Source: Massilia sp. Se16.2.3 (GTDB lineage: Bacteria > Pseudomonadota > Gammaproteobacteria > Burkholderiales > Burkholderiaceae_D). From it: a stretch of 64,000 bases of DNA. Below, piece by piece: positions 7,601 through 41,579 of the stretch. The notes below the pieces were generated by a model that was given only the letters and a program-made list of their open reading frames with translations, was not told where the DNA came from and did no database searches. Location: positions 5,146,001 to 5,210,000 of the forward strand of contig NZ_CP050451.1 of NCBI RefSeq assembly GCF_014171595.1, written 5' to 3'. Each line of letters begins with the position of its first letter. The stretch's first letter is position 1. Position numbers and translations under genes: made by a program.

Positions 7601-7615
7601 AGTAGCAAAACTACG
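7601..7615. promoter_or_regulatory. HexR-like operator in the agl-glk / POT divergent region
   Basis: AGTAG-CAAAA-CTACG matches the TGTAR-N5-YTACA pattern recalled for HexR in all but the outermost bases. It lies 145 bases before the alpha-glucosidase start and about 100 before the POT start. The same motif recurs before the other sugar genes in the window. Confidence 0.6.
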
Positions 7616-7714
7616 CACCAGCACTGGTGGCGCCCGTCGAGCCGCCATTTTCCTGTTGCAAAGAACGAAACACCGTCATAGCATCCCGGGTTGATTCCTC
7701 TATCCGATGCCGCC

Positions 7715-9326
7715 ATGAGCCAGCCGACCACACCTGCAACAAGCGGGCGCATGCCACGCCAGATCCCCTACATCATTGCCAACGAAGGCTGCGAGCGCTT
7801 CAGCTTCTATGGCATGCGCAACATCCTGACGCCCTTCCTGATCTCGACCCTGCTGCTGTTCCTGCCGGAGTCCGAGCGCACGGGCGAAGCCAAGCACGTG
7901 TTCCACACCTTCGTCATCGGTGTCTACTTCTTCCCGCTGCTGGGCGGCTGGCTGGCCGACCGCTTTTTCGGCAAGTACAACACCGTGTTCTGGCTCAGTC
8001 TCGTGTATTGCGCGGGCCATGCCTGCCTGGCCATTTTTGAAGACAATGTCCAGGGCTTCTATCTCGGCCTGGGCTTGATCGCGCTGGGCTCGGGCGGCAT
8101 CAAGCCGCTGGTGGCGAGTTTTGTCGGCGACCAGTTCGACCAGACCAACAAGGGCAAAGCGAAGCTCGTCTTCGACGCCTTCTACTGGATCATCAACTTC
8201 GGCTCCTTCTTCGCGTCGCTGCTGATGCCGGTCTTCCTGCGCGACTACGGCCCGGCCGTCGCCTTCGGCATTCCCGGCATCCTGATGTTCATCGCCACCA
8301 TGGTGCTCTGGAGCGGCAAGAAGAAATACGTGCACGTGCCGCCGAGCGCGGCCAGCCCGGATTCCTTCACCCGCGTGGCCCGTACCGCCCTGCTGGCACG
8401 CGCACCGGGGCAAAGCCGCCCGGGCCTGGCCGTGGCCGTGGACCGGCGTGCTCGGCGCGGTGGTATCGCTGGCGATGACGCCGCAATGGGGTTTTGTCAT
8501 CGCCGCCTGCATGGCGCTCGTGCTGCTGCTTGCGTTCGGCGGCATCGGTACCGCCATGCAGCTCGATCGCGCGCGCGGCCACCACCCGGCCGAAGCCGTC
8601 GACGGCGTGCGCGCCGTGCTGCGCATCCTGATCGTGTTCGCCCTCGTCACGCCCTTCTGGTCGCTGTTCGACCAGAAGGCCTCGACCTGGGTGGTGCAGG
8701 CCAATTCGATGATCACCACCTTCTCCGTCTTCGGCCTGGAAGTCACGCTGCTGCCGGCCCAGATGCAGGCGCTGAACCCGATGCTGGTGATGCTGCTCAT
8801 CCCCTTCAATAACCTGGTGCTGTTCCCGCTGCTGCAGAAAGTCGGCTTCACGCCGACGCCGCTGCGCCGCATGACAGCCGGGATCGCGTTCTCCGCCTTG
8901 TCCTGGCTCGTGATCGGCACCATCCAGGTATCGATGGACGCAGGCACGCCCACCTCGATGGCCTGGCAGATCCTGCCCTACGCGCTGCTGACGATGGGCG
9001 AAGTGCTGGTCTCGGCGACCGGCCTCGAATTCGCCTACAGCCAGGCGCCCGCGTCGATGAAGGGCGTGATCATGGCGCTCTGGTATCTGGCCGTCACGGT
9101 CGGCAACCTGTGGGTGCTGGTGGTGAACGCGGCGGTGAAGAACGATGCGGTGCTGGGCACGATTGCCAGTTCCGGCCTGGGCGTGATCGCCTTCCAGATG
9201 TATTTCTTTGCCGCCTTTGCGCTATTGGCGGCGCTGGCTTTCGGGCTGTACGCGAAGCGCTACCGGATGGTGGACTACTACCGCGGCACGGACGCGGCGA
9301 AAGCGCCGGCGACGGCGAAAGCCTGA
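7715..9326 (+). pseudogene. POT-family (PTR2) proton-dependent transporter, frameshifted
   Basis: Homologous to the proton-coupled oligopeptide transporter (POT/MFS) family. The N-terminal part begins at the ATG at 7715 and carries the family motif with ERFSFYG, followed by GGWLADRFFG and the PTR2-type segment FYWIINFGSF. The second half (from about 8400 in another frame to 9326) supplies the remaining transmembrane helices, starting VLGAVVSLAM. One frameshift falls at about 8395-8425, in the loop between the two six-helix halves. Both halves are well conserved, so a one-base sequence error is as likely as true inactivation. It is divergent from the alpha-glucosidase operon and shares its control region, hinting at co-regulation with sugar use. 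Confidence 0.8.
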
Positions 9327-9364
9327 CAACGCAAGGCGCAGTGCTTGTCACGCACGGAGGCGAT

Positions 9365-9769
9365 ATGACGACCTTGTTTCCCATCCTGAAGCTCCTTTTC
9401 GTGGCGGTCCTGTTCGGCTTTCCTCTCTATCTCAACATTAAGAGGGCGCGGCGTGGGGACGACTTCAGCATCCGCCCCCTTGTCGACGAGCAGTTCCGGC
9501 AACTGGTCGTCGAGGCAGGCAATCCGGAGCTGTGCTTCGACGGCAGCCGTGCGCGCATCGTCGACGAGACGGAGGAAACCTTCCACGACAAGGGCAGCAA
9601 CACGACGACGCTGCTGCGCATCCAGCGCTACGCGCGCAACGAGTACGGCGAGTACTTCTTCTTCATCTCGGACGGCAGGAGCAAGCCCTTCTTCAAGCAC
9701 ACCCCGCACCACATCGCGAAGATCGCGCTCAAGGACAATTACCGCGAGCCCTATCCCGACAGGCGCTGA
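9365..9769 (+). CDS. hypothetical protein with N-terminal membrane anchor
   Basis: Encodes 134 aa from the ATG at 9365, which has a strong GGAGG six bases upstream. One hydrophobic helix (about residues 3-22) is followed by a soluble charged domain containing NEYGEYFFFISDG. The protein is probably anchored in the inner membrane. It starts 38 bases after the POT transporter and runs into another hypothetical gene 33 bases later, so the three may share a transcript. I do not recognise the family. Confidence 0.7.
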   Translation: MTTLFPILKLLFVAVLFGFPLYLNIKRARRGDDFSIRPLVDEQFRQLVVEAGNPELCFDGSRARIVDETEETFHDKGSNTTTLLRIQRYARNEYGEYFFFISDGRSKPFFKHTPHHIAKIALKDNYREPYPDRR

Positions 9770-9802
9770 CGGCGGCATGCGCCACCGATAAACAAGGAAG
9801 AC

Positions 9803-10826
9803 ATGCCCGTCAACCACATTGCAGAACAATACCTGCACGCCTTCACCTCCGGCGGCGATTTTCCTGGCGGCCTGGCGTTTCGCAAGGCCCTCGGCCAGGC
9901 GAACCTCGACTTCACGCCCGACAGCCTGGGCCGGATCGACATGCTGCTGCGCCAGATGCGCACGCGGCTGCGGCCTGACTACACGCCCTTCATCAACAAG
10001 CAGGAGAACCAGACCTTCCTCTACCTGCTGTGCTTTTACGTGGGCGCCGTCGTCTGCCGCTATACCCGCGACGACTTCGCCTGGTACAGCTACGACGAAC
10101 TGAAAGAGGCCGCGCCGCCGGAGTTCCTGGCGCAGATACCGGAAGCCTTCGCCACCTCCATGGTCTGCCTGCTGCGCGAAAACGGCGTCCTGCTTCCGCT
10201 CTCGCCGATCCTGGACCTGCTGTTCGACGAGGCGGGCGACGCCAGCGTGCTGGCCACGGCCGACAAGACGATGCGGCGCCTGGCGCATGCCGTCCGGCTC
10301 GAACGTCCGCAGTCTGCCGCGCGCGCGCGACGACCCGCGTACCGCGGCCCTGCACGCCACCGCTGCCTGCGCCGGCTGGGCGGCGGGCTTCGCGACCTGG
10401 ATGATCTGCGAGGGCGGCATCCTCGATACCACCCTGCTGCACCAGCTGCCCAACGGCAAACGCCAGGCCGTCACGCTGTTCGACTGCCCGTTCGAACAGG
10501 CCCGCGAGCGGCTCGAGCGCATGGAAGACAATGCGCAGGTATCGGTACTGGCCTACAAGGATGTCGTCGGCCTGCCGAGCGTTCGCCTGGACGCCATCGT
10601 GCTCGACGTGCGTAGTGCCGCTTCAAAGGCGCTGGCGCTCACGATTGCCGTGCCCTACCGCGCCGCCGGCGGGGACACCCCCTTCGCCGTGTTCCGCCCC
10701 TGCATGCTGCACCCGCAAAGGCCCGGCCCGATGGCGCAGGCCGTCATCGCCGCCGGCTTTTTCGAAGGCATCGACAGCTACCAGCCGGCTGGCCTGCTCG
10801 ACAAGTACCTGGACACCACGGCGTGA
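9803..10826 (+). pseudogene. conserved hypothetical protein, frameshifted
   Basis: Two overlapping frames together give a protein of about 340 aa. The first frame runs from MPVNHIAEQY at 9803 to about 10300. The second continues from about 10320 (ARDDPRTAALHATAACAGWA) to 10826. The frames join cleanly around 10300-10325 in a very GC-rich stretch, so a single-base error or a recent mutation explains the break. There is no signal peptide or obvious catalytic motif. The function is unknown. The downstream gene starts 50 bases later. Confidence 0.65.
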
Positions 10827-10876
10827 AGCATCGCGCCGCCCATCTGTTCGATCGTCGCAGGACGAGAAAGGAAGGA

Positions 10877-11647
10877 ATGAAGAAGAAGATACTGATTCCC
10901 GCCGCGCTGGCCCTGGCGCTGGCCGCCACGGTGGGCAGCGCGCAGCCGCCGGCGACTTCACCGGAGGCCACCCCGGCCACGGAAACGAACAGCGCGGACG
11001 AGGCGCCCGTGCAAACCGTGCAGGTGCGTGGCGTGCGCGATCCCGCACTCATGCCCTACGAAAAAGCCTACGATTTCCTGACGCGCCTGCGCAAGGCCGG
11101 CGACGGCAGGATGGATATGGTGATCCGCATCCTGTCGGCGCGCACGCAGCAGCCGATTCCGGACCTGGAAGTCTTCCTGCAGGGCGAAACCACGTATCGG
11201 AAACTGGCCCTTTCCCCCGAGGGCTTCCTCACCATGGTGCTGGACCCGGCCTACCTGAAGGACAAGGTCGCGATCCTGACTAACAAGCCCAAGGGGGCGA
11301 TCGTCGTCGAATACTATTTCGTCCCGACGCTGCCGGCCGATGGGCTGCGCTTTGCCGACATCGGCGCCAGCATTGCCGCGGTCAAGCGGGCCCAGCGGGA
11401 AGTCCTGCCCTGGTACCTGCGCCCGTTCATGGGGACGATCAGGGAGGTGATGCTGTGCTACCCGCGCAAGGACCAGGAGCTGTTGGTCACGCAGGGCGAG
11501 ACAGTGGTCCGGCCCGCCAATATCGAGCAGAAGAACATGCTCAGCAGAAACACCGTGTATTGCGCCGTTTTCAACGAGGCTGAAGCGCGCAAGGCGCCGG
11601 ACAGCCTGGTGGCGGCACCCGCCAGCCCGATCGCCCTGTTTCGATGA
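10877..11647 (+). CDS. hypothetical exported protein
   Basis: Encodes 256 aa from the ATG at 10877, preceded by a purine-rich AAAGGAAGGA site. Residues 1-22 are a signal peptide ending GSAQ, so the protein should be periplasmic. After a Pro/Thr/Glu-rich linker comes APVQTVQVRGVRD near residue 40. This looks strikingly like the segment before the plug of TonB-dependent receptors (compare APIQTVQVTGIR in the receptor at 38386-41055). The rest has no receptor barrel and I see no catalytic motif. Two cysteines near the C-terminus could form a disulfide. The function is unknown. Confidence 0.72.
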   Translation: MKKKILIPAALALALAATVGSAQPPATSPEATPATETNSADEAPVQTVQVRGVRDPALMPYEKAYDFLTRLRKAGDGRMDMVIRILSARTQQPIPDLEVFLQGETTYRKLALSPEGFLTMVLDPAYLKDKVAILTNKPKGAIVVEYYFVPTLPADGLRFADIGASIAAVKRAQREVLPWYLRPFMGTIREVMLCYPRKDQELLVTQGETVVRPANIEQKNMLSRNTVYCAVFNEAEARKAPDSLVAAPASPIALFR

Positions 11648-11711
11648 GGCCGGGCGGCGCGCATGCAACACGGGTAAGACGCGAAAGGGAAATCAGGCGT
11701 AGAGTAGTCGC

Positions 11712-11897
11712 ATGAGACCGCGCCGCGACTATGAAACCGCCAGATTGATCGACGAGTCGATCAAGCTCATGCAATCGCAGGGCACCTACCGCGCAGCGCG
11801 CATGCTGTGCGAAGCCGGCGTGCGCCTCGATACGGCCTATCGCGTGCTGCGCCGGCCCGAGCAGCGCCGCATCTATGGCGAGGCTATTCTGCACTGA
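11712..11897 (+). CDS. small basic hypothetical protein
   Basis: Encodes 61 aa, strongly helical and Arg-rich (MRPRRDYETARLIDESIK). The ATG follows a GTAGAGTAGTC stretch without a strong ribosome binding site. The composition suggests a small nucleic-acid- or protein-binding peptide, but no family is recognised. It is kept because its codon use looks like that of real genes and no competing gene occupies the interval. Confidence 0.45.
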   Translation: MRPRRDYETARLIDESIKLMQSQGTYRAARMLCEAGVRLDTAYRVLRRPEQRRIYGEAILH

Positions 11898-12072
11898 GCC
11901 CCGGGACCGACACGTCGGTTACTTCCCCGAGTATCGGCGGCTGCAGCTCCGACCGTTCCTTCGGCCAAGTGCCAGTTCACCGCCGAGCTTGCCGCGTCGG
12001 CATCAGGGTCTAGTAGAATTACATCGGAATTGAGCAAATTTCCTCTGCTTGCCGCCTGTTGGCGAGCTCCGA

Positions 12073-12087
12073 TGTAGCACAACTACG
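12073..12087. promoter_or_regulatory. HexR-like operator before pullulanase
   Basis: TGTAG-CACAA-CTACG matches the TGTAR-N5-YTACA pattern with only the last base off. It ends 14 bases before the pullulanase ATG, where a bound repressor would sit on the transcription start or early leader. Confidence 0.6.
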
Positions 12088-12101
12088 AGAACCTGCTGCC
12101 G

Positions 12102-14819
<2,718 letters not shown>

Positions 14820-14890
14820 AAGGCAGGTAGGATGGCGCATCGGCGGCGGCGCACCTCGCTCCGCCATGCCGAACCTGCCAGGAGCCAGCT

Positions 14891-15432
14891 TTGCACAGCA
14901 CACATGCCTTGCGCGTCGACGCGGGACGGATCATGAAGGTTAACCACGCCGGCGAGCACGGCGCCGTGAACATCTACGCGGGGCAGCTCGCTGCGGCAGG
15001 CTGGCGCGCGCGTATTCTGGTCTCCGAACTGGCCGAATTCAAGTCCCACGAAGAGCGGCACCGCGCACTCTTCGCCAGCGAACTGGCGCGCCGCGACCGC
15101 CGCGCTGCCGCAGCTACTGGCTGTGCGGCGTGGGCGGCTACCTGCTCGGTTTCGTCACCGGTTTGCTGGGCGTGCGCTCAATTGCGATCGCAACCGTGGC
15201 GGTGGCGCGCGTGGTGCTGCGGCACCTGGAGCAGCAGCTCCTGGCCATCGGCACCACCGATCCCCACGCCAGCGCCGCCATCTCGGCTATATTGCAGGAA
15301 GAGCAGCTCCATCATGACCATTCCGCAGCCCATGTCAGCGATTCCGGACTTCTTCATCGCATGCTAGGCGCGGTGATCTCGGGCGCGACGAAGTCGGTGA
15401 TCTGGATAGGGATGCGGCTCGGTCGAACCTAA
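14891..15432 (+). pseudogene. Coq7-family (demethoxyubiquinone hydroxylase-like) protein, frameshifted
   Basis: The N-terminal part (start TTG at 14891 with AGGAG at 14880-14884) contains MKVNHAGEHGAVNIYAGQ, the first metal-ligand helix typical of Coq7/ferritin-like di-iron hydroxylases, and then EFKSHEERH. From about 15115 the protein continues in another frame (GGYLLGFVTGLLG, then EEQLHHDHSA), which supplies the later metal ligands. It would hydroxylate a ubiquinone precursor at the membrane. The join at about 15110-15130 is GC-rich, so a base error is plausible. The gene follows pullulanase by 71 bases, without an obvious functional link. Confidence 0.75.
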
Positions 15433-15441
15433 ATCCAGCTT

Positions 15442-15468
15442 GATTGCACTTTTTTATCAAATGCAATC
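15442..15468. promoter_or_regulatory. inverted repeat overlapping a promoter
   Basis: GATTGCA (15442-15448) and TGCAATC (15462-15468) form perfect 7-bp arms. They surround and overlap the -35 element of the promoter at 15453-15481, a position expected for a repressor operator. It could alternatively be a weak stem-loop after the Coq7-like gene. Confidence 0.4.
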
Positions 15469-15481
15469 GTATGTTTATAAT
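15453..15481 (+). promoter_or_regulatory. sigma70-type promoter for the AT-rich island gene
   Basis: TTATCA (15453-15458) and a perfect TATAAT (15476-15481) are separated by 17 bases, the ideal spacing. The promoter points at the GTG start at 15520. Such a consensus-like promoter is rare in this GC-rich window. Confidence 0.6.
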
Positions 15482-15519
15482 TTTTAGACTTTTTTTTACT
15501 TTGCAAGAAAGACTACTTC

Positions 15520-16470
15520 GTGACCGAATCGACGAAAACAGCAATTATCACAGCGGTGCTTACAGGCATTTTTACTGTCGTGGCTGGAGTCGCCACCTAC
15601 TGGTTTACTACAAAAGAGCCGGAACTTTCATATTCGGTAGTAGGTGGTCCGGCTCTTTCAAACGCTAGTGGCTCAAAACGCATCTTCGTAGTCGAAGTAA
15701 GAAACGACGGCAAGAAAGAGGTTGCTCAGACTTTGATTCAAGTTAGTCTAAAGTTCGGTGAATTAAGCGAAGCGGCCTCGGAAGCAAGTCCTGGAGTTAA
15801 ATTGGCCGAAGAGAAAACGCAACATCAGATCGATATAAGGGCAGACTTATTAAACCCTGGTGATGCTGTTAAGGTCTCGTTTTTGACAGCGCTCGCATCC
15901 CAAAACGGACAACCTACTGTAGTAGTACGAGCGCCTGGTGTAAAAGCAATTGCTGAAAGCTCAAAATCGAACAACCCTTTAGACATTGCATTGCTACCGC
16001 TGATTCTAGGCACACTTGCTGCTGTTCTTAGTACATTTCTGATGGCTGCACGTATTGGGTTTCTCGGGAGGTTAGTTGGTTTTGCTGGGCCATCACTAGA
16101 TCAATCTGAGATATCCGCAAACATTTGTGCTGCATGTGGTCTACATGACGAAGCTAACCGATTAAGGTTTGGGGGGCCAGAGATTTCGTACCGAGGAACT
16201 GCGGATTTTCTTTTGCAACAAGCTCTTTCTGTAGAAGAGCCACGTCGAAAAAAGTATGACATGGCCTTGCGCGGCCTACTGCTGTTTGCCGACACCACAC
16301 CCAATACGCAATACACCATCCGTTACGCAATTGAGTTTTTGGCAGGATCCCCAATTTCAGACGCTGATTTTGAAGAATTGAAAAACAAAAAGACCCGCGA
16401 AGGCGAGGACCCGGTAGTTTGGCGCCAGAGATTAGTAACTTTTGTCAGTGAGGCGAATTCAGAGAATTAA
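15520..16470 (+). CDS. hypothetical two-membrane-segment protein in an AT-rich island
   Basis: Encodes 316 aa from a GTG start with an AAGAAAGA site upstream. One membrane helix lies at about residues 8-28, followed by a beta-rich domain (about 35-145) with a CARDB/Ig-like feel (FVVEVRNDGKKEV, LLNPGDAVKVSF). A second hydrophobic segment lies at about 155-180, then a C-terminal helical region with the pair CAAC. The same layout (helix, beta sandwich, second helix) appears in the gene at 16804-17790. Base composition and codon use are far more AT-rich than in neighbours, indicating horizontal acquisition. The function is unknown. Confidence 0.72.
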   Translation: MTESTKTAIITAVLTGIFTVVAGVATYWFTTKEPELSYSVVGGPALSNASGSKRIFVVEVRNDGKKEVAQTLIQVSLKFGELSEAASEASPGVKLAEEKTQHQIDIRADLLNPGDAVKVSFLTALASQNGQPTVVVRAPGVKAIAESSKSNNPLDIALLPLILGTLAAVLSTFLMAARIGFLGRLVGFAGPSLDQSEISANICAACGLHDEANRLRFGGPEISYRGTADFLLQQALSVEEPRRKKYDMALRGLLLFADTTPNTQYTIRYAIEFLAGSPISDADFEELKNKKTREGEDPVVWRQRLVTFVSEANSEN

Positions 16471-16525
16471 ATACATGCAACTTCGGTGTAGATTATAATA
16501 ATCTATATTTTCTGCACTCGTTAAA

Positions 16526-16715
16526 ATGAGAGAATTCGACTGCAAATTCTCAGCGACGGCATGATCGCTACCATTATCACGATCACAGTTGCTGGGACCG
16601 GATTTTCGCACGACCCCAATTTCCGGGTCTTAAGCCCGCTATGACCCGTTTTCATGAGCTACGCACTCAGCTTCGTCTGCTCCTGCATCTGCATCTACTG
16701 GGACACGCCCCAGTA
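16526..16715 (+). pseudogene. decayed 5' fragment of a TMEM175-family channel gene
   Basis: Translated from about 16549, the reading LSDGMIATIITITV, then HDPNF and PVFMSYALSF, matches the first 55 residues of the intact TMEM175 protein at 17783-18385. It has a TGA in place of the Trp codon and a frame slip near the start. The nucleotide similarity to 17805-17960 is obvious by eye. The fragment stops at the second helix. It lies between two AT-rich genes that separate it from the intact copy. Confidence 0.7.
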
Positions 16716-24216: not shown

Positions 24217-26076
24217 TCAGACGTCCAGGTGCGAAATGAGCAGCTTCCTCGCCTCGATGTCGCCGTCCTGCCCGGCACCGAGCGAAATCCCGACCGCCAT
24301 GATGTCGATCAGCAGCAGCTGCAGGATGCGCGAGATCATCGACAGGAAGGTCGTGCTGTCCTCGGTGTGGTCCACCGCCAGGCACACGTGCGCCTTCTTC
24401 GCCAGCGCCGACTTGCTGCTGGTGATGGCAATCACGCTGGCGCCGGCGGCGCGCGCGGCGTCCACCGCCGACAGCAGTTCCGGCGCCTGCCCTGCCGTCG
24501 AAATGGCGATCACGACGTCGTTCGGCTGCAGCAGTTCGGCCGCGAGCTGGAACAGGTGGGCGTCGCCGTGGGCCGTGGTCGGAATCCGAAAACGGAAGAA
24601 CTTGTGCTGGCCGTCGAGCGCCACCACGCGCGCATTCCCCATCGCATAGAACTCGACCTTGTTGGCACCCCGCAGCAGCGCGATTGCCCGGTCGATCGCA
24701 TGCACATCGAGCCCGTCGCGGAATTTCAGGATCGCCGACACGGTGTTGTCGATCACCTTCGCCGACAGGTCGTGGGTGCTGTCGCTCATGCGCACCTGGC
24801 TGTGGCGCACGGGGATCGAGCCGGTCAGGCTGCCGGCGAATTTCAGCTTGAATTCGGCCAGGCCCTGGAAGCCGAGCGAGCGGCAGAAGCGGATGACGGT
24901 CGGCTGGCTGACGTCGGCCAGGCGCGCGATCTCGGCGATCGGCTCGGACAGCACCTTGCGCGGATGCTCCAGCACGAGTGCGGCCACGCGCTGCTCGGCC
25001 GGCGACAATTCGTGCTGCAGGTGCTGCACGCGCTCCATCAAGGTATTGGCGCCGCTGCGTCCGCGCAGGTGTTCGGACAAAATCGTCGACACGCCGCGCA
25101 GGGCGGGGTTCGGCGTCATGATGACGTAGGTTGGAATTTGCGCCAGGTAGTCGGTGAAACGTCCCTTGGCCTCGAAGCGCGCGCGGAAGGGCGAGGTAGC
25201 GAACCATTGCGCAATGCGCGGCACGATGCCGCCGCCAATGAAGATGCCGCCAAAGGCGCCCAGCGTCACGGCCAGGTTGGCCGCGGCGCCGCCGAGCATG
25301 CCGGCGAAGCACTCGAGCACTTCCGGGCACAGGGGATCCTGCTGTTCGAGCGCGCAGCTGACGATCTCGGCGGCGCTGCGCGCGGGGGCCGAATTTGCCA
25401 CATTCGCGCCATTTCTTTCGGCCAGCGCGCGGTACACCAGCTCCATGCCGGGGCCGGAGAGGATGCGCTCGTTCGACACGTGCGGCCACTCGCGCCAGGC
25501 GTACTGCAGGATGGCGAATTCGCGTTCGTCGGCGGGGGCGAAGTTGACGTGGCCGCCCTCGCTGCCGAGGGTGATGAAACCGTCGGCGGTCGGGATCACG
25601 CCCGAGACGCCCAGGCCGGTACCGGCGCCGAGCACGCCCGCCACCGCATGCGGGGCCGGCTTGCCGCCGCCGATCTGCAGCACGTCGTTTGCGCCCAGGC
25701 CCGGCAGCGCCATCGCCAATGCCGTGAAGTCGTTGACGATCAGGAGCGTCGACCAGCCCATCGCACGGCGCACTTCGTCGGTCGAGAACTGCCAGTCGCG
25801 GTTGGTCATGCGTACCAGGTCGCCGCTGATCGGGTTGGCCATCGCAAAGGCCGCGTGCGAGATGCGCTCGTTGCCGTGCTGCGCCAGGTAAGTGTTCAGC
25901 AGCGGGACGATGCCGCTGTAGTCTTCGCAGCGCAGCACCGCGGTCTGGCGCAGCACGCCGGGCGCCGTCTCGAGCGCGAGGCGGGCGTGGGTGGCGCCGA
26001 TGTCGGCCAGCAGGCGCGGGCCGTCGGCGTAGGAGGCACGGCTGGGTTTCTGTTCGATTTCTGGTTCGGTGATCAT
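24217..26076 (-). CDS. bifunctional glucokinase / RpiR (HexR-type) regulator, second copy
   Basis: Encodes 620 aa from the ATG at 26076, which aligns best with the paralogue at 3939-5819. A start at 26118 would add 14 residues. The Glk domain shows DIGATHAR, VNDFTALA, GAGTGLG and SEGGHVNF. The RpiR helix-turn-helix is SQPTVIRFCRSLGF, followed by a SIS domain with AISTAG. Both copies are close in sequence along their full length and have the same fusion point, so they arose by duplication. This copy has no sugar gene beside it. An inverted repeat (26111-26138) stands just upstream and may serve autoregulation. Confidence 0.92.
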   Translation of the reverse strand: MITEPEIEQKPSRASYADGPRLLADIGATHARLALETAPGVLRQTAVLRCEDYSGIVPLLNTYLAQHGNERISHAAFAMANPISGDLVRMTNRDWQFSTDEVRRAMGWSTLLIVNDFTALAMALPGLGANDVLQIGGGKPAPHAVAGVLGAGTGLGVSGVIPTADGFITLGSEGGHVNFAPADEREFAILQYAWREWPHVSNERILSGPGMELVYRALAERNGANVANSAPARSAAEIVSCALEQQDPLCPEVLECFAGMLGGAAANLAVTLGAFGGIFIGGGIVPRIAQWFATSPFRARFEAKGRFTDYLAQIPTYVIMTPNPALRGVSTILSEHLRGRSGANTLMERVQHLQHELSPAEQRVAALVLEHPRKVLSEPIAEIARLADVSQPTVIRFCRSLGFQGLAEFKLKFAGSLTGSIPVRHSQVRMSDSTHDLSAKVIDNTVSAILKFRDGLDVHAIDRAIALLRGANKVEFYAMGNARVVALDGQHKFFRFRIPTTAHGDAHLFQLAAELLQPNDVVIAISTAGQAPELLSAVDAARAAGASVIAITSSKSALAKKAHVCLAVDHTEDSTTFLSMISRILQLLLIDIMAVGISLGAGQDGDIEARKLLISHLDV

Positions 26077-26110
26077 CGCGATGCTCGACGGCTGGGATAC
26101 CTGGGACGCG

Positions 26111-26138
26111 CGTAGCATAGCATTGTTTGATTGCTACG
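26111..26138. promoter_or_regulatory. inverted repeat upstream of second glk-hexR
   Basis: CGTAGCA (26111-26117) and TGCTACG (26132-26138) are perfect 7-bp arms 14 bases apart. The arms contain the GTAG/CTAC core of the HexR-like sites but with wider spacing. Autoregulation is inferred. Confidence 0.4.
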
Positions 26139-32362: not shown

Positions 32363-33685
32363 TTAATTGCGTGCCTTGTCCGTCACGGCCAGCGTCAGTA
32401 CGGCGGCAACGAGCATGCAGCCGCCACCGAGCGCCAGCGTCAGCACCGTGTGGCCGTCGAAGAAGGCGCGCGTGACGAAACCGAGCAGCAGGCCGCTGAC
32501 GATCTGCGGGATCACCACGAAGAAGTTGAACAGGCCCATGAAGTAACCCATGCGCTTGGCCGGCAGCGAGCCCGCCAGGATCGCGTACGGCATGGTGAGG
32601 ATGCTCGCCCAGGCGATGCCGACGCCGATCATCGGCAGCATCAGCATGTCGCGCTCGTGGATCAGGGCGATGCTCGCCAGGCTGATGCCGCCGATGGCGA
32701 GGCAGGTGAAGTGCACCGTCTTGCGGCTGGTCGCACGGGCAAAGACCGGCAGGATGAAGGCGGCCAGCGCGGAGACGCCGCTGTACACCGCGAACATGAT
32801 GCCGACGTGGTTGCCGGCCGCCTGGTAGGCCGCCGACTGGGCGTCGCGCGTGCCCCAGACGGTATCGGCAATCGCGCTGCCGGTATAGATCCACATGGCG
32901 AAGAGCGCGATCCAGGTGAAGAACTGGACAAAGGCCAGCTGCACCATCGTTTTCGGCATCCTGGCAAAACCGCCGACGATTTCGGCCAGCGCCACGCCGA
33001 CATTGCGTGCCTGCTGGCGCTCGTGCTGAAAGCTGTCCAGGTCGGGCGGCGGCAGTTCGTCGGCGGTGAACACGGTCCAGCTGACGGCCGTCATGAACAC
33101 CACGGCACCGGCGTAGAAGGAGTAGCGCACGGTGTCGGGAATCATGCCGTCCACCGGCACGTTCGAGACACCGAGCTCGGTGAAGATCGTCGGCAGCAGC
33201 GAGGCGATCACCGCGCCACAGCCGATGAAGAAGGTCTGCATCGCGTAGCCGGCCGTCTGCTGCGAGGCGTCGAGCTTGTCGCCGACGAAGGCGCGGAAGG
33301 GCTCCATCGAGACGTTGATCGCCGCGTCCATCATCCACAGTACGGCCACGGCCATCCACAGCGCCGAGGAATTCGGCATCAGGAACAGGGCGATGGCGGC
33401 CAGCAGCGCGCCGATGAAGAAGAAGGGACGGCGCCGGCCCCACTTCGGGTGCCAGGTGTTGTCGCTCATGTAGCCGATCACCGGCTGCACCAGCAGGCCC
33501 GTGACCGGCGCGGCCAGCCAGAACAGGGCCAGGTCGTCGGGATTGGCGCCCAGGGTCGAAAAGATGCGGCTGGTATTGGCGTTCTGCAGGGCGAAGCCGA
33601 ACTGGATGCCGAAGAAGCCGAAGCTCATGTTCCACAGCTGCCAGAACGACAGGCGTGGCTTGAGCGCGTTGGTATGCATGTCCAT
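32363..33685 (-). CDS. MFS sugar transporter, SUC/GPH-type (maltose/maltodextrin)
   Basis: Encodes 440 aa from the ATG at 33685, with GGGGA just upstream. It has twelve predicted membrane helices and features of the sucrose/maltose proton symporters (MFS, SUC-type): SFGFFGIQFGFALQNAN at the start, GYMSDNTWHPKWGRRRPF in the first loop, and PYAILAGSLPAKRMGYFMG in the second half. It probably brings maltose or short maltodextrins across the inner membrane with protons. The substrate is inferred from family and the surrounding genes. It heads the carrier-pgm-amylase operon and diverges from a second SUC-type carrier, with two HexR-like sites between them. Confidence 0.88.
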   Translation of the reverse strand: MDMHTNALKPRLSFWQLWNMSFGFFGIQFGFALQNANTSRIFSTLGANPDDLALFWLAAPVTGLLVQPVIGYMSDNTWHPKWGRRRPFFFIGALLAAIALFLMPNSSALWMAVAVLWMMDAAINVSMEPFRAFVGDKLDASQQTAGYAMQTFFIGCGAVIASLLPTIFTELGVSNVPVDGMIPDTVRYSFYAGAVVFMTAVSWTVFTADELPPPDLDSFQHERQQARNVGVALAEIVGGFARMPKTMVQLAFVQFFTWIALFAMWIYTGSAIADTVWGTRDAQSAAYQAAGNHVGIMFAVYSGVSALAAFILPVFARATSRKTVHFTCLAIGGISLASIALIHERDMLMLPMIGVGIAWASILTMPYAILAGSLPAKRMGYFMGLFNFFVVIPQIVSGLLLGFVTRAFFDGHTVLTLALGGGCMLVAAVLTLAVTDKARN

Positions 33686-33837
33686 CTGTGTCCCCAAGCG
33701 GCCCGGCGCAGGTAGCCGGGCTCTCTGTATATGGCGAACGCTCCATTGATTGTCCTGCCGGCGCGGATGCCGTGCGGGAAGTGTCTGGGAGCGTCCCCGT
33801 CCGGTAGGCCAGGAGGACGGGCTAATGCAGGTCTATT

Positions 33838-33852
33838 TGTAGCAAAATAACA
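33838..33852. promoter_or_regulatory. HexR-like operator (site 1) between the two MFS genes
   Basis: TGTAG-CAAAA-TAACA matches the HexR-type left arm perfectly and the right arm in four of five bases. It shares the TAACA right arm with the second site at 33925-33939. The site lies 153 bases upstream of the leftward MFS gene. Confidence 0.5.
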
Positions 33853-33878
33853 TGGCATTTTCCGAGTGTCAATCGCGC

Positions 33879-33903
33879 GACATGGTAGTAAAATCGCCAT
33901 GTC
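33879..33903. promoter_or_regulatory. palindrome between the divergent MFS genes
   Basis: GACATGG (33879-33885) and CCATGTC (33897-33903) are perfect 7-bp arms around 11 bases that contain GTAGTAAAA. It lies midway between the two HexR-like sites and may bind a second regulator or be part of one array. Confidence 0.35.
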
Positions 33904-33924
33904 TATAAGGTGGCACGTCCATTT

Positions 33925-33939
33925 TGTAGTCAAATAACA
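33925..33939. promoter_or_regulatory. HexR-like operator (site 2) before the rightward MFS gene
   Basis: TGTAG-TCAAA-TAACA lies 18 bases before the ATG of the rightward MFS gene. It differs from the consensus at few positions and closely resembles site 1. Confidence 0.5.
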
Positions 33940-33957
33940 CAACAACACGGAGACACC

Positions 33958-35241
33958 ATGCTCGACTTCCAGCGCCGGCTGAGCCCTTCCTTCTACGCCC
34001 TGGCCAGCCTGCCCGCCACCGCCATGGGCTTTGCCCTGTGCATCCAGATTTCGGCGCTGAGCTGGTTACTGAGCACCAGGTACCACCTCGACATCCACGA
34101 GATCGGCATCGTCTGGGCCGCCGGCCCGCTGGCGGGCATCCTCGGCCAGGTCATTATCGGCTTCATCAGCGACAAGACCTGGTTCTGGGGCGGGCGGCGC
34201 CGGCCCTTCATCCTGGTCGGCGGCACGCTGGCGGCGCTGTCGGTCTTCCTGCTGCCGCGCATCGAGGTCGTGGCAAGCCTGCTCGGCACGGCCAACCTGC
34301 TGGTGGTGGCGGTGATCATCGCGCTGACGCTGGACCTGTCGATCAACATCAGCTTCAACCCCACCCGCTCGCTGATCGCCGACGTCACGCCCGAAGGCGA
34401 GGCGCGCACGCGCGGCTACACCTGGATGCAGACGATCTCCGGCTTCTGGGGCGTGATGGCTTACCTGATCGGCGCCTACATCGACAACTATGCGCTCATC
34501 TCGGTGGGCGTGTTCATCGTGCTGGCCTTTTCGGTGCTGCCGGTCTTCCTGATCGAGGAGCCGCGTGAACTGGCGCCAGCGCAGCAGGCTAGCGCCGAGG
34601 AGGCGACCAGCACCGACTGGGGCCAGCTGTGGCGCCTCTGGACCGCGCACGCCTTCAGCTGGTTCGGCGTGCAGGCCATGTTCGTCTACATCATTGCCTT
34701 CATCCAGCAGCACGTGGTGGCAAGCGGGGCCACGCCCTCTGAAGCGGCGGCGCAGTCGGGCCACGTGATCGCCATTTCCTTCGCCGTGATGAACGTGGTC
34801 GGCTTCCTGCTGCCGGCCCTGGTGCTGGCGCCCCTGGTCACGCGCTTTGGCAGGGTGCGCACCCAGGCGGGCTGCGTCGGCATCATGGCCCTGGCCTACT
34901 TTGCCATCGCCCTGTTCGCCCGCACTCCCGGCGCGCTCTACGCGCTGATGGCGGTGGTGGGCATCGGCTGGGCGGCCGTGGTCAGCCTGCCGTTCGCGAT
35001 CATGAGCGAGAAGGTGGACAAGCGCCGCATGGGCTTTTTCATGGGCCTCTTCAACCTGTCGGTGGTGCTGCCGCAGCTGGCCACGACGAGCGTCGGCTAT
35101 CTATTGAAATCGGCGGCCGACAAGAACGTGCTGTTCCTGATCTGCGGCGGCTGCCTCGCCGTCTCCAGCGTGCTCTGGCTGCTCGTACGCGAGAATAAAG
35201 CCGCGCCCGTCGCGGCGCCTGCGCTTGCGAGCGCTCACTAA
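33958..35241 (+). CDS. MFS sugar transporter, SUC/GPH-type (second copy)
   Basis: Encodes 427 aa from the ATG at 33958, after CGGAGA. Twelve membrane helices are predicted. Family features include GFALCIQISALSWLLS, GFISDKTWFWGGRRRPFIL and SEKVDKRRMGFFMGLFNLSVVLPQL. It diverges from the other SUC-type carrier (32363-33685) but is clearly distinct in sequence, so the two may handle different oligosaccharides. The start is close to HexR-like site 2. The esterase gene begins five bases after its stop, so the two are likely co-transcribed. Confidence 0.87.
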   Translation: MLDFQRRLSPSFYALASLPATAMGFALCIQISALSWLLSTRYHLDIHEIGIVWAAGPLAGILGQVIIGFISDKTWFWGGRRRPFILVGGTLAALSVFLLPRIEVVASLLGTANLLVVAVIIALTLDLSINISFNPTRSLIADVTPEGEARTRGYTWMQTISGFWGVMAYLIGAYIDNYALISVGVFIVLAFSVLPVFLIEEPRELAPAQQASAEEATSTDWGQLWRLWTAHAFSWFGVQAMFVYIIAFIQQHVVASGATPSEAAAQSGHVIAISFAVMNVVGFLLPALVLAPLVTRFGRVRTQAGCVGIMALAYFAIALFARTPGALYALMAVVGIGWAAVVSLPFAIMSEKVDKRRMGFFMGLFNLSVVLPQLATTSVGYLLKSAADKNVLFLICGGCLAVSSVLWLLVRENKAAPVAAPALASAH

Positions 35242-35245
35242 GCTC

Positions 35246-36133
35246 ATGAAAGCCCGTCACTCCATGACATTGACCCGCTCCCTCCTCGCGCTTGCCCTGG
35301 CCGCCACGCTCTGCGGTTTTGCTTCGGCGGCCGACAACATCGCGCCGCCACCAAAGGCATCCACCGCCCTGCCTGGTGTGAGCCTGCTGCCGGAACTTCC
35401 CGAGATGCCGGCCCTGAACCGCAAGCGGCAGGTGCGCCTCTACCTGCCGCCGGGCTATGCGACCTCGAACAAGCGCTACCCGGTTCTCTACATGCACGAT
35501 GGCCAGAACCTGTTCGACGATGCCACCGCCTATGCCGGCGAGTGGAAAGTCGACGAAACGCTCGATGCGCTGGCCAAGGAAGGCAAGCTGGAACTGATCG
35601 TGGTCGGCGTCGACAACGGCGGCGACAAGCGCATGACGGAACTGAACGCCTGGGACAACACGCGCTTCGGCGCCGCCGAGGGCAGGCAGTACATGGACTT
35701 CATCGTCAAGACGCTGAAACCCCTGATCGACGCCCGTTACCGCACCCTGCCCGACCGCGCGCATACCGCCATCATGGGCAGCTCGATGGGCGGGCTGGCC
35801 TCGCACTACGCGATCGCGCAGTATCCGGATGTCTTCAGCAAGGCGGGCGTGTTCTCGCCGGCCTACTGGACCGCCGAGCCCTCGTACGGCTTCATGGCGC
35901 AACATCCGCTGCCGAAGGACGCGCGGGTTTACCTGTTGATGGGCGAAAAGGAAGGCGAGTCGATGGTGCCGGATGTGGAACGCATGGCGCAGGTGGTGCG
36001 GACGAGCGGGCATCCGGCGGCGAATACGGTCTTGCGCATCGTGCCGGAACAGCGCCATAACGAGGGATTCTGGAGCGGGGAATTGCGGGCGGCGCTGCTG
36101 TGGATGTTTGCGGACCAGAAGGCGGCGCGCTAG
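35246..36133 (+). CDS. secreted esterase-family alpha/beta-hydrolase
   Basis: Encodes 295 aa. Start ATG 35246 is chosen; 35264 is an alternative. A signal peptide ends FASA near residue 28, so it is periplasmic. It belongs to the esterase D/feruloyl esterase-like group: VLYMHDGQNLFD near the start, GSSMGGLAS as the nucleophile elbow with catalytic Ser, the acid probably in the MGEKEG region, and His in EQRHNEGFW. It follows the MFS carrier by five bases and is probably in the same operon. It may remove acyl groups from carbohydrate or act on trehalose-type esters, but the substrate is inferred only from context. Confidence 0.8.
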   Translation: MKARHSMTLTRSLLALALAATLCGFASAADNIAPPPKASTALPGVSLLPELPEMPALNRKRQVRLYLPPGYATSNKRYPVLYMHDGQNLFDDATAYAGEWKVDETLDALAKEGKLELIVVGVDNGGDKRMTELNAWDNTRFGAAEGRQYMDFIVKTLKPLIDARYRTLPDRAHTAIMGSSMGGLASHYAIAQYPDVFSKAGVFSPAYWTAEPSYGFMAQHPLPKDARVYLLMGEKEGESMVPDVERMAQVVRTSGHPAANTVLRIVPEQRHNEGFWSGELRAALLWMFADQKAAR

Positions 36134-36139
36134 CGTCAA

Positions 36140-36300
36140 CGTAGGGCGGGGTGAATGTGGCCGGGGGCCTCATTCACGAGCCCACGCGGATTCAGGCAAC
36201 AGCGTATCGAAACGCTGAAGGAAACGCGAACGCCAACACTCAAATACCAGCGCTACTCAGCAGCCGGTGAGACCGCGTGGGCTCAAGAGCCCACCCTACG
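36140..36300. repeat. intergenic repeat with CGTAGGG/CCCTACG ends
   Basis: The ends CGTAGGG (36140-36146) and CCCTACG (36294-36300) are inverted. Inside, GAGCCCACGCGG (36178-36189) is the exact complement of CCGCGTGGGCTC (36273-36284), and GGGCTCAAGAGCCC (36279-36292) is itself a palindrome. No gene is present. The same outer ends bound the element at 28719-28935. Confidence 0.6.
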
Positions 36301-36337
36301 TGCCTGCGGCGACGAAGGTATGCGGATCTATATTGAA

Positions 36338-36363
36338 CGCGTGGACGGCCAGCCGTCCACGCG
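36338..36363 (-). terminator. stem-loop after the helicase gene, possible terminator
   Basis: CGCGTGGACGG (36338-36348) and CCGTCCACGCG (36353-36363) form an 11-bp stem with a four-base loop, seven bases beyond the helicase stop. The T-tract on the minus strand is poor (TTCAATAT), so termination may be weak. Confidence 0.45.
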
Positions 36364-36369
36364 ACGCCC

Positions 36370-38229
<1,860 letters not shown>

Positions 38230-38330
38230 GGATGAGTTGCTCTTAAATTGAAACGGAAGCGACAGTTTACACCGTCGTCCGCGGAGGCGTGGCTAAATTG
38301 CCACCAGTCCTCATTTTTGCGGTGAGGAAA

Positions 38331-38367
38331 AGAAAAAAGCCCTTGCAGGCATGGCCTGCAAGGGCTT
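38331..38367 (-). terminator. strong intrinsic terminator of the TonB-dependent receptor gene
   Basis: AAGCCCTTGCAGGC (38337-38350) and GCCTGCAAGGGCTT (38354-38367) form a perfect 14-bp stem with a three-base loop. On the minus strand it is followed by a T-rich tract (TTTTTTCTTTT). It lies 19 bases after the receptor stop. Confidence 0.9.
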
Positions 38368-38385
38368 GCTGTGATGCGGATGAAA

Positions 38386-41055
38386 TTACAGTTTGTAATT
38401 CAGACCCAACAGCATTTGACGGCCATATTTCACATAGCCGCGTGGACGGTCCGGCGAACCCGCATAGGTCTGGAAGTCGGTGTCGGTCAGGTTATTCACC
38501 TGGAACAGCACCGACAGGCCCTTCACTTGCGGGATGTCGTAACCGAGCTGCATGTCGACCACGGTGTCGCCCTTGACGAAGGTCAGCTCGCTGGCGCCGC
38601 CGATGCCGCCGATCTCGCCAACGAAGTCGCTGCGGCGACGGCCGCTGACGCGGGCCGAGAAGCCGTTCGCCTCGTAGTAGCCGGTCACGTTGAACACGCG
38701 CTTGGACAGGCCTGGCAGCGGGATATCCATGCTGCCGAAACGCTGGTCCTTGATCGCGATCTGGCTGCTGGTGAACGAGGCGTTGGCGGTGACGCCGAAG
38801 CCGGCCAGCATCGGGTGCAGCACTTCCAGCGGGGTCGACACGGCGAACTCGAGGCCGGCGATGCGGCCGCCGTCGCCGTTCTTCGGCTGGTTCATGGTGC
38901 CGATGTTGCTGGTGGCGCCTTCCAGGCGGTACTCCGAGAAGTCACGCGGCACGGTGATGTTGTAGATGTACGACTTCAGGTCCTTGTAGAAACCGGCAGC
39001 CGACACATAGCCCTTCTTGGCGAAGTACTTTTCGTAGGACAGGTCGATCTGGTTGGCGCGCCATGGATCCAGCTGGGCGTTGCCGCCGTTGCCGTACGGC
39101 GTACCGGTGCTCTGCTGGGTCAGGCCGACTTCCAGCGCGGCGTTCAACTGGTCGAGACGGGCGCGTGCCAGCGTGCGGCCGACGCCGAAGCGCAGGACCT
39201 GGTCTTCCGGCAGGGTCCAGGCCAGGTTCAGGCTAGGCAGGTAGTCGGTGTACTTCTTGCCGTCGGTGAGCGGCACCAGGTCGGCGAACGGCCAGGCGCG
39301 CAGCGTGTTCGCGGTCGAGCTCTGGTCGGTCTTGACGACCTGCACGCCGACGTTACCGCGCAGCGGCATGGCCATCAGTTCGGTGTCGATGTTGAGCTTG
39401 ACGTAGCCGGTCTTGACCTTCTCGTCGATCGACCAGTTCTTGGTCGCGCCCCAAGGCACCAGGATGGCCGGGGTGTACGGGCCGAAGTTCTGGGCCAGCA
39501 CGCCGTTGATGTCCCAGCTCAGGGTGTTCGGCAGCGCGTACAGGTCTTGCGAGCCGTTGACCACGTTGGCTGCGAAGCTGCCGTCGCCCAGCTTCGAGAA
39601 GCCGGTTTCCAGGTGCTGCTTTTCCTTCTCGCGCTTCGAGACGTTGAAGCCGACTTCGACGCTGCTGAACGGGCCGTTGCCGAACTTGTATTCGACGCTG
39701 GCACGGGCCGAGTTCAGCCTGTCGGTCATGTGCGGGGCGTTGACATAGCCTTCGCCGAACTGGCCGCCGATGCGGATGTCGGCCGGGTTGTCGTAGCTGC
39801 CCGACAGGTTCAGGTTCGGGATGGCGCCGTTGCCGTAGTCGAAGCCGAGGGTCTGGCGGGTGGCGCGGCCGGCGTTGATCTCGACCAGCTCTTCCTTGTG
39901 ATCGGCCTTCGAGTGGGAGAGGTCGATGATGCCGACCCAGTCGCCCGAGGTGAAGCGGTTGTTCCAGCCGAACGCGGTCAGCTTGTCGTCGCGCGACATG
40001 CGGTTGTTGCGCACGACCGGATTGACGTCGGTGGCGGTGCCGCTGACCATCACGCCGTTGACGATCTTCCCGTTGGTGAAGCCGACGGTGCCGTCGTCCT
40101 TCAGCGGGATTTCCATGCCGCGGCGGACTTCGTCCTGGTCGAAGCGCGAGTGGTACACGTCCAGGGTCGAGCTGAAGTTGCGGTTCGGGCGGTACTCAAG
40201 AACGCCCATCAGGCCGTCACGGACCTGGTTGCCGGTGGTGGCGAGGGCCTTCATGCCTTTCGGGACCTTGGCGGCCTGGCCATCCACGGTGCCGTCGACC
40301 CAATCCCAGGTCTCGAACTGTTCCGAGACGTTCGGCTTGTCCTGGCGCGCGTAGCCGATGGCCACGCCGATGGTGCGGTTGGCGAACTGGTCGACGTAGG
40401 AAGCGCTGACGCGGTTGCCGGTGTCCGGCGAACCGGCGCTGACTTCGCCCTTCGAATTGCGCTCGCCGCGCACGTTCAGGCTGATCGAGCGCTCGCGCAG
40501 CGACAGCGGCTTGATGGTCTGCAGGTCGACGGTGCCCGACAGGCCCTGGCCGACGAGGCCGGCGTCGCTGGTTTTGTAGACGGTGACGCCGTTGATCAGT
40601 TCGGACGGGTACTGGTCGTATTCGACGGTACGGTTCGAGCTGGTGCTGACCTGTTCGCGGCCGTTGAGCAAGGCGGTCGACAGGTCGCCCGAGGTGCCGC
40701 GGATGCTGATCTGCTGCGCCTGGCCATTGACGCGCTGGGCCGACAGGCCCGGCAGGCGTGCCAGCGATTCGGCGATCGAGATGTCCGGCAGCTTGCCGAT
40801 GTCTTCGGCGGAAATGGCTTCGACGACGCCGGTGGCGTCGCGCTTGACGGCGATTGCGTTTTCGATCGCGCGGCGGATGCCGGTGACCTGGACGGTCTGG
40901 ATCGGCGCCTCGGCCGCTGGCTCGGTGACCGCGGTTTGTGCGGTGGCGTTACCGGCCATGACCGATACGAAAATGGCGCAGCCGACCGCGACCGGGCTCA
41001 GCTGGAATGCAAGGCCTGCCGTGTTTGCAGTGCGCTTGTGTGCGGAATGTTTCAT
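38386..41055 (-). CDS. TonB-dependent outer-membrane receptor (maltodextrin type)
   Basis: Encodes 889 aa from the ATG at 41055, with an AGGGGA site upstream. It has an N-terminal signal sequence, a TonB-box-like segment (APIQTVQVTG), then the plug (SAEDIGKLPDISIAESLARLPG, near residues 70-100) and a 22-strand barrel that ends with the aromatic-type GLNYKL. It belongs to the Xanthomonas/Caulobacter-type receptor group that imports oligosaccharides. It should move maltodextrins over the outer membrane using TonB energy. The substrate is inferred from the neopullulanase operon divergent from it. Its end has a strong terminator, and degenerate and exact HexR-like sites lie upstream. Confidence 0.9.
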   Translation of the reverse strand: MKHSAHKRTANTAGLAFQLSPVAVGCAIFVSVMAGNATAQTAVTEPAAEAPIQTVQVTGIRRAIENAIAVKRDATGVVEAISAEDIGKLPDISIAESLARLPGLSAQRVNGQAQQISIRGTSGDLSTALLNGREQVSTSSNRTVEYDQYPSELINGVTVYKTSDAGLVGQGLSGTVDLQTIKPLSLRERSISLNVRGERNSKGEVSAGSPDTGNRVSASYVDQFANRTIGVAIGYARQDKPNVSEQFETWDWVDGTVDGQAAKVPKGMKALATTGNQVRDGLMGVLEYRPNRNFSSTLDVYHSRFDQDEVRRGMEIPLKDDGTVGFTNGKIVNGVMVSGTATDVNPVVRNNRMSRDDKLTAFGWNNRFTSGDWVGIIDLSHSKADHKEELVEINAGRATRQTLGFDYGNGAIPNLNLSGSYDNPADIRIGGQFGEGYVNAPHMTDRLNSARASVEYKFGNGPFSSVEVGFNVSKREKEKQHLETGFSKLGDGSFAANVVNGSQDLYALPNTLSWDINGVLAQNFGPYTPAILVPWGATKNWSIDEKVKTGYVKLNIDTELMAMPLRGNVGVQVVKTDQSSTANTLRAWPFADLVPLTDGKKYTDYLPSLNLAWTLPEDQVLRFGVGRTLARARLDQLNAALEVGLTQQSTGTPYGNGGNAQLDPWRANQIDLSYEKYFAKKGYVSAAGFYKDLKSYIYNITVPRDFSEYRLEGATSNIGTMNQPKNGDGGRIAGLEFAVSTPLEVLHPMLAGFGVTANASFTSSQIAIKDQRFGSMDIPLPGLSKRVFNVTGYYEANGFSARVSGRRRSDFVGEIGGIGGASELTFVKGDTVVDMQLGYDIPQVKGLSVLFQVNNLTDTDFQTYAGSPDRPRGYVKYGRQMLLGLNYKL

Positions 41056-41156
41056 TTGTCCCCTCAGATCAATACGACGTAATTTCCCGAAGACAGCTGC
41101 AGAGCCACGGCACGGGAGCGAGTTCAACGTTCTTTTGGACGTTCTGGCAAGAATTC

Positions 41157-41171
41157 TGTACTAAAACTAGA
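41157..41171. promoter_or_regulatory. degenerate HexR-like site before the TonB receptor
   Basis: TGTAC-TAAAA-CTAGA differs from the TGTAG-N5-CTACA pattern at two positions. It lies 102 bases upstream of the receptor ATG and its altered bases are shared with the site at 41453-41467. Confidence 0.35.
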
Positions 41172-41285
41172 TGCACTGTCAACGAGAGTTCATTTCCACT
41201 ACGCTATTCGCGAAGCCATAGCCCCGTTATATAGAATGAAACAGCAATTCGTTGTATGCCAGCTACATAAACATCCCTACAGCGT

Positions 41286-41300
41286 TGTAGTCGGACTACA
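41286..41300. promoter_or_regulatory. perfect HexR-like operator
   Basis: TGTAGTCGGACTACA is a complete palindrome in the TGTAG-N5-CTACA form, extended to T...A on each side. It is the best match in the window and sits midway between the TonB receptor and the neopullulanase operon. Confidence 0.65.
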
Positions 41301-41452
41301 AGTTGCTTGCTTTTCACCATCTGGGGGCGAAAATGCACCAACAGGGTGCGCGCTCAACCAGGCCCGTACAAACAGACAGTTCACCTGGCCAGTTTCCGGA
41401 AGACGAATTGCAATGCAGAAATTTTTGAGCGATGTCGCGTCAGAGCCCTGTA

Positions 41453-41467
41453 TGTACCTAAACTAGA
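41453..41467. promoter_or_regulatory. degenerate HexR-like site
   Basis: TGTAC-CTAAA-CTAGA repeats the variant seen at 41157-41171, including the following AT. It may be a weak operator or a separate regulator's site. Confidence 0.35.
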
Positions 41468-41564
41468 TCACCCTTGGCGTTGCCCAGTCCATGCGCGTGG
41501 TGTATTCTCAGCCCATTGGCAGAGCCACAAGCCTGTACTTTGCCATGCTTGCCCTGGATTGTTC

Positions 41565-41579
41565 TGTAGCCAAACTACG
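41565..41579. promoter_or_regulatory. HexR-like operator before the neopullulanase operon
   Basis: TGTAG-CCAAA-CTACG, one mismatch from a perfect palindrome in the arms, ends 39 bases before the neopullulanase ATG. This position suits repression. Confidence 0.6.

Follow-up and report, generated by a model that had tools for sequence, protein, structure and literature searches.

The analyses presented here concern a stretch of 64,000 nt of the Massilia sp. Se16.2.3 genome (contig NZ_CP050451.1, positions 5,146,001–5,210,000; 'the window' below), in which a short palindrome stands repeatedly before genes for starch and maltodextrin use. Judged from sequence, these palindromes are most likely the operators of one starch regulon, with the consensus TGTAGY-N3-RCTACA, and we consider it probable that the regulator is the RpiR half of two glucokinase–RpiR (Glk–RpiR) fusion proteins, fus1 and fus2, acting as a repressor. 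A first-pass annotation of the same DNA had proposed that a single operator ties the starch and maltodextrin units together, and this proposal has held up: the word recurs at unlinked starch genes and at a glucokinase gene, and its conservation extends through the genus to sister genera.

All six palindromes noted earlier, at positions 7601, 12073, 33838, 33925, 41286 and 41565, are present, although only that at 41286 is a perfect TGTAG-N5-CTACA; two (12073 and 41565) deviate at one position and three (7601, 33838 and 33925) at two. With up to two mismatches allowed, this loose word has 38 matches in the window where 8.4 are expected, and the tighter TGTAGYNNNRCTACA (TGTAGY-N3-RCTACA), which is the better candidate operator word, has 21, the average over 40 dinucleotide shuffles being 2.2. 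Ten of the 21 lie in promoter regions of the starch units and 11 elsewhere; a binomial figure for their clustering was set aside, because the pattern derives partly from those same sites. Position frequencies were compiled from 47 distinct words, which had been picked by pattern match, so that the table leans towards the pattern. Beyond the six, sites were found at 12009, 41157, 41253 and 41453, with a weaker one at 33884–33898. The putative operator at 7601–7615 lies between the alpha-glucosidase gene agl with its neighbour fus1 and a divergent POT-family carrier gene, a place where 14 of 18 relatives have a site with at most two mismatches. Two copies precede the pullulanase gene (pul), one at 12009–12023 and the other, 64 bp further on at 12073–12087, ending 14 bp before the pul ATG. 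At two major facilitator superfamily (MFS) sugar carrier genes, the site at 33838–33852 contains the predicted −10 (TATTTT) of carrier a, the weak third site (33884–33898) contains the predicted −10 (TAAAAT) of carrier b, and a further site (33925–33939) stands before carrier b. The region between the TonB-dependent receptor and neopullulanase genes holds five sites: 41157–41171, within the predicted receptor promoter, between its −35 (TTGACA) and its −10; 41253–41267; the perfect 41286–41300; 41453–41467, on the neopullulanase side; and 41565–41579, some 40 bp upstream of the likely ATG of the neopullulanase gene.

Conservation was assessed in the 300 bp upstream of each gene in 20 same-genus relatives with fetched stretches and in the genome itself, the denominators being the genomes, own included, whose stretch holds the gene. 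Gene order in the cluster is broadly shared by these relatives, although genes have been gained and lost. A site with at most one mismatch stands upstream of the receptor in 19/19 genomes (shuffle mean 0.10), and in many relatives a different receptor, 37–49% identical, occupies the receptor place. Sites with at most two mismatches precede the carriers in 21/21 genomes (shuffle mean 0.43) and agl in 15/19 (shuffle mean 0.33), as compared with 1/21 for fus2, 0/21 for amy, 0/21 for pgm and 1/21 for deaD, which served as control genes. In a second set of 21 further loci (Duganella, Pseudoduganella, Undibacterium, outlying Massilia and two metagenome-assembled genomes), sites with at most one mismatch precede agl in 14/14, pul in 5/8, the receptor in 3/3 (Undibacterium) and carrier a in 5/9, the controls at up to two mismatches being amy 0/10, pgm 0/3 and fus2 1/21. 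Unlinked targets are kept as well: 12 of 13 chosen glucokinase places carry TGTACCTAAACTACA or its complement, ten of these 12 with a second site 54–65 bp away, and the amylase gene has a site with at most two mismatches in all six relatives possessing it. A close relative of the isoamylase gene was found in just 1 of 30 other genomes, where its sites are weakened.

The first-pass annotation had tied its reading to an enrichment of the motif at sugar genes genome-wide. What we find is no overall enrichment, but a concentration of the matches. The site at 41286 is the sole exact TGTAG-N5-CTACA in the 5.35-Mb genome, against eight for a reversed control pattern. The word TGTAGNNAAACTACA, with at most two mismatches, occurs at 33 distinct places, eight of them within 7601–41579, and its 34 strand matches fall below the 81 of the reversed control. 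Seven of the 25 places outside the window are at sugar genes, namely glucokinase, amylase, isoamylase (two sites), the 5' end of a second pullulanase gene, edd and zwf, the last two belonging to the HexR class. The remaining 18, assigned by a crude pick of open reading frames (ORFs) that also mislabelled some promoter sites, comprise 14 inside ORFs and four outside, one of the latter (2740153, one mismatch) lying between an OmpA-like gene and an ORF without a name. The stand-alone glucokinase gene (G000:C1 2158251; L037 6137–7500) is frame-split in Massilia sp. Se16.2.3, yet its operator is present.

The arrangement of the sites at predicted promoters bears on their mode of action. In the predicted carrier-a promoter, TTGACA-17-TATTTT, the −10 falls inside the operator TGTTATTTTGCTACA, and the TTGACAC upstream of sites of this type is kept in 21/21; the receptor operator is preceded by GTTGACAGTGCA at 18 of 20 such sites. 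Before agl, TGTATATTNNCTANA words containing TATATT are found in 11 same-genus relatives and in 7 of the 10 further loci searched, and the window's own agl has no such word. That the carrier and receptor sites coincide with the predicted −10 or fall in the spacer suggests the geometry of a repressor, and therefore a bound protein would be expected to block RNA polymerase.

As to the protein that binds these operators, we infer it from linkage and co-occurrence. Both fusions consist of a glucokinase followed by RpiR HTH and SIS domains in a single chain. The NCBIfam model for bifunctional Glk–HexR (NF010701) matches residues 192–795 of the long fus1 ORF (minus strand, 3939–5819, with an inferred start near 5804–5819) with 795 bits and residues 26–614 of fus2 (minus strand, 24217–26118; the ORF extends beyond the end at 26076 given earlier) with 797 bits, both under the curated cut-off of 920, which a protein from just 1 of 120 genomes of the order (G142) exceeds. 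With a stand-alone HexR (G000 4886648), they are the only three RpiR proteins of the genome. The three LacI genes lie at 0.65, 2.26 and 3.47 Mb and the cluster at 5.15–5.19 Mb; a LacI regulator was dropped as a candidate, there being no LacI gene near the cluster. The earlier claim that the fusions control starch use thus keeps its core, since they are the best candidates on the grounds of linkage, the small number of RpiR proteins, co-occurrence and the presence of the same word before zwf in fusion operons elsewhere, but the two cannot be treated as equivalent: the operon in which fus1 stands, downstream of agl, has an operator, and fus2 has no conserved one. A 28-bp RccR-like palindrome upstream of fus2 (26111–26138) was also considered and dropped, being in place only in this genome of 21, with two further chance-like matches elsewhere in G011 and G020. 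In most relatives fus2 has a promoter-like block resembling CAATGGTATCC near its start codon, upstream of 26118, without an operator.

We suggest that the RpiR half (HTH and SIS) of fus1 and fus2 would occupy the operators and block RNA polymerase at the promoters of the carriers and the receptor, and likewise at the alpha-glucosidase promoter of relatives, with fus1 under feedback control through its own operon. Release would probably be brought about by glucose or by a sugar phosphate from starch breakdown, which may act on the glucokinase half, on the SIS half or on the two together. In a quick tree, whose long branches leave the order of the outsiders unsure, the starch fusions form one clade (73 rows, SH-aLRT 100) with the other fusions outside it; this starch-dedicated clade, duplicated in the Massilia group, is related to fusions associated elsewhere in the Burkholderiales with zwf–pgl or sugar uptake genes. 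Bifunctional Glk–HexR proteins (NF010701/PRK14101), of which a figure legend in PMC12568896 names one for Paraburkholderia xenovorans, share the Glk–HTH–SIS order. That of G142 is linked to zwf–pgl and a sugar-type ABC carrier rather than to starch genes and has a GGTN phosphate loop, unlike the window fusions; its zwf–pgl–fusion operon, opposite the ABC carrier, has the operator word TGTAGTTTAACTACA just before zwf. A sister fusion in G081 has LamB and sugar-type ABC genes in its vicinity, and sites are present there.

The co-occurrence comparison covered 17 agl or starch loci from other genera of the family. Where a starch-type fusion is encoded in the genome (G202, G199, G192, G151), or a 53–55% identical fusion lies in the same stretch (G224, G172, G181, G208), 6/8 loci hold a site with at most one mismatch, as against 0/9 where neither is present (Fisher p 0.002, for a split drawn post hoc, after the loci had been seen). 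The nine comprise G143, G147, G187, G231 and G234, with a 51–53% fusion elsewhere, G178 and G169, with HexR only, and G210 and G163, in which a search found no RpiR protein. In the 600 bp before agl alone no site with at most two mismatches was found at any of the 17 loci, fusion present or absent alike; whole-locus counts were used instead because another gene (glk) precedes agl in several loci.

The post hoc split is one of several points that weigh against assigning the operators to the fusions, or against a single regulon. The compared loci of G202 and G151 are not those at which the fusion of the genome is encoded; G151 has no site on its 7.3-kb agl contig despite a starch-type fusion, and G208, where a 53% fusion stands beside the starch genes, has none in 15 kb. 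G142 has seven RpiR proteins, so that its site is assigned by adjacency. In addition, a site with at most two mismatches precedes pul in just 5/19 of the genus genomes (shuffle mean 0.47), carrier a has no site with at most one mismatch in L165–L167 and L146 of the further loci, and a promoter scan before the receptor found one where 0.8 are expected, that is, at chance level. The HTH recognition helices of HexR and the fusions, moreover, are nearly identical, such that HexR could bind as well.

It is of interest which known operator the word resembles. Stand-alone HexR adjoins zwf, pgi and edd in the genus, and the promoters of these genes carry words of their own: TGTAGTAAATTTACA at zwf in 16/20 genomes and TGTAGTAAAATTTCA at edd in 14/17, the other four and three, respectively, being one mismatch off. 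The ends are TTACA or TTTCA at zwf, edd and pgi, and CTACA or CTACG/T at most starch sites, while the half-site TGTAGT is common to both classes. The nearest published word is the Pseudomonas RccR 15-mer TGTAGTAAAACTACA (PMC5489143), and the starch sites match its TGTAGT-N3-ACTACA form; the earlier description of the operators as HexR-like was thus roughly right, but the starch word is nearer to the RccR word than to that of HexR at zwf, edd and pgi. RccR also has two copies of its site, 68 bp apart, at aceE. It is the closest solved RpiR relative of the fusions (8ju9/8k3b, apparently RccR from the residue numbering), from which it differs in having no kinase domain, in regulating aceE and glyoxylate and gluconeogenic genes, and in sensing 2-keto-3-deoxy-6-phosphogluconate (KDPG). 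HexR shares HTH and SIS halves with the fusions but, like RccR, has no kinase; the fusions score 213 and 222 bits with the HexR model NF008451, under its cut-off of 296.

HexR is an alternative candidate for the sites. It may bind them jointly with the fusions, with overlapping specificity, so that the starch regulon would integrate KDPG and glucose signals, an arrangement for which the similar HTH and the common half-site speak, but which we regard as unlikely; slightly less likely still is that HexR alone binds the starch operators together with zwf and edd, the fusions being mainly kinases, even though the zwf regions are only two mismatches from the starch word in 16/20 genomes and the recognition helices are so alike. 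Both proposals meet the same difficulty, in that each of the two operator classes has ends of its own throughout the genus. Moreover, in G041 the zwf–fusion operon carries TGTAGTAATGCTACA and the separate HexR cluster (pgi/edd region) carries TGTAGTAAAATTTCA, and, with respect to HexR alone, neither a fusion nor a site is present in G178 and G169, which do possess HexR together with an agl relative (61% and 54%).

Binding by an unrelated regulator, either an unrecognised factor or the LacI-type MalR, seems to us improbable. A MalR is indeed listed for maltodextrin utilization in Shewanella (PMC3223726), but none of the three LacI proteins is encoded near the cluster, the odd-centred 15-bp palindrome fits an RpiR (RccR) site, and no other transcription-factor domain was found in the scanned part of the cluster ORFs. 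That the palindromes arose by chance, or merely resemble promoters, is hardly credible: part of the conservation is that of the −10 sequence, and the loose word is not enriched genome-wide, but the conservation exceeds that of shuffles and control genes, perfect palindromes precede related genes in other genera, and the unlinked targets are retained in relatives.

If the fusions are the regulators, what their kinase half does becomes a central question. We aligned 100 distinct starch-type fusion rows, using E. coli glucokinase numbering, and surveyed residues that, like the phosphate loop, we take to have catalytic or sugar-contact roles. The equivalents of N99, E157, H160 and E187 are invariant (100/100). 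In the phosphate loop, GATH has replaced GGTN, with A for the second G in 100/100 rows and H (99) or Q (1) for N; by comparison, the GGT loop is kept in 9/11 other fusions and GGTN in all ten stand-alone glucokinases, of 13 searched, in which the loop was located. D100 is glycine in 2/100 rows, and both window fusions keep D100. A search from one D100G protein gave 4034 hits, and glycine was found in 15 of the 120 listed, a list biased towards the lineage of the query; with the two queries the count is 17/122, one hit being identical to a query. All 17 D100G fusions retain N99, E157, H160, E187 and the HTH glutamine, and these variants still have their HTH and SIS domains. A quick FastTree tree needs three or more changes to explain the state, possibly a single gain followed by two losses. 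Two such fusions, at 11627–13483 of L212 and 980–2818 of L218, read VNGFTAL for VNDFTAL, the catalytic Asp being lost, and have a separate glucokinase gene nearby.

The SIS half was compared with the KDPG pocket reported for RccR (S139, H148, R152, H164, S183, S185, S188, K270 and R277; PMC10810197). H148, R152, H164 and S183 are kept in 100/100 starch-type rows, S139 in 71/100, S185 in 63/100 and S188 in 0/100; for K270 there is no clear equivalent, and the alignments end short of R277. The pocket is thus only partly kept.

The first-pass annotation had pictured a glucose-phosphorylating enzyme serving as its own repressor and sensor. The sensor part agrees with the retained sugar contacts; the enzyme part fits poorly with the altered phosphate loop, with the fusions that have no catalytic aspartate, and with the separate glucokinase of relatives, which itself carries the operator. 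We tentatively put forward, as a possibility falling somewhat short of an even chance, that the kinase half of the starch clade is a glucose sensor and not a working enzyme, such that a pseudokinase–RpiR fusion would place the TonB-dependent starch regulon under the control of free glucose released from starch, with phosphorylation left to the operator-bearing glucokinase. Regulators derived from sugar kinases, some of them catalytically dead, are known, e.g. the ROK repressors Mlc and NagC and yeast Gal3; these belong to other kinase families and have other means of binding DNA, whereas here the kinase is fused to RpiR.

Glk–HexR fusions are already named in databases, but in the available portions of the literature searched (including PMC5343134, PMC5489143, PMC10810197, PMC3223726 and PMC12568896) we found neither a description of starch control by a Glk–RpiR fusion nor a reason for joining kinase and regulator; nor did those portions yield, for Massilia, Duganella and Undibacterium, a regulator or operator of starch use by the TonB-dependent route, which our interpretation, if true, would supply. 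Whether the kinase half is a sensor becomes a testable question in this clade, where the sugar pocket and the DNA-binding half are retained but catalysis varies or is lost.

Finally, the genes of the cluster are as follows. On the minus strand, agl (5819–7456), with matches to GH13-type NCBIfam models, is the upstream neighbour of fus1, in relatives also. The POT-family carrier opposite agl, at about 7714–9330, is split over two reading frames, either as a pseudogene or through an assembly indel. On the plus strand, pul occupies 12102–14819 (TIGR02103, 923 bits). Carrier a (minus, 32363–33697) matches TIGR01301 and PF07690, and carrier b (plus, 33958–35241, start ATG inferred at 33958) was likewise identified by profile matches. 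The TonB-dependent receptor (minus, 38386–41127; TIGR01782, 640 bits) had been placed in one operon with neopullulanase; the two are divergent and form separate units, the neopullulanase-like GH13 gene occupying 41619–43469 on the plus strand (start ATG inferred at 41619, within an ORF of 41307–43469) and being followed by an amylo-alpha-1,6-glucosidase gene (GDE_C, PF06202; plus, 43466–45604). At 15130–15432 there is a COQ7 match over the second half of the family model only, possibly another broken frame, and an IS3-type integrase (rve, HTH_21) is encoded at 53920–54780.

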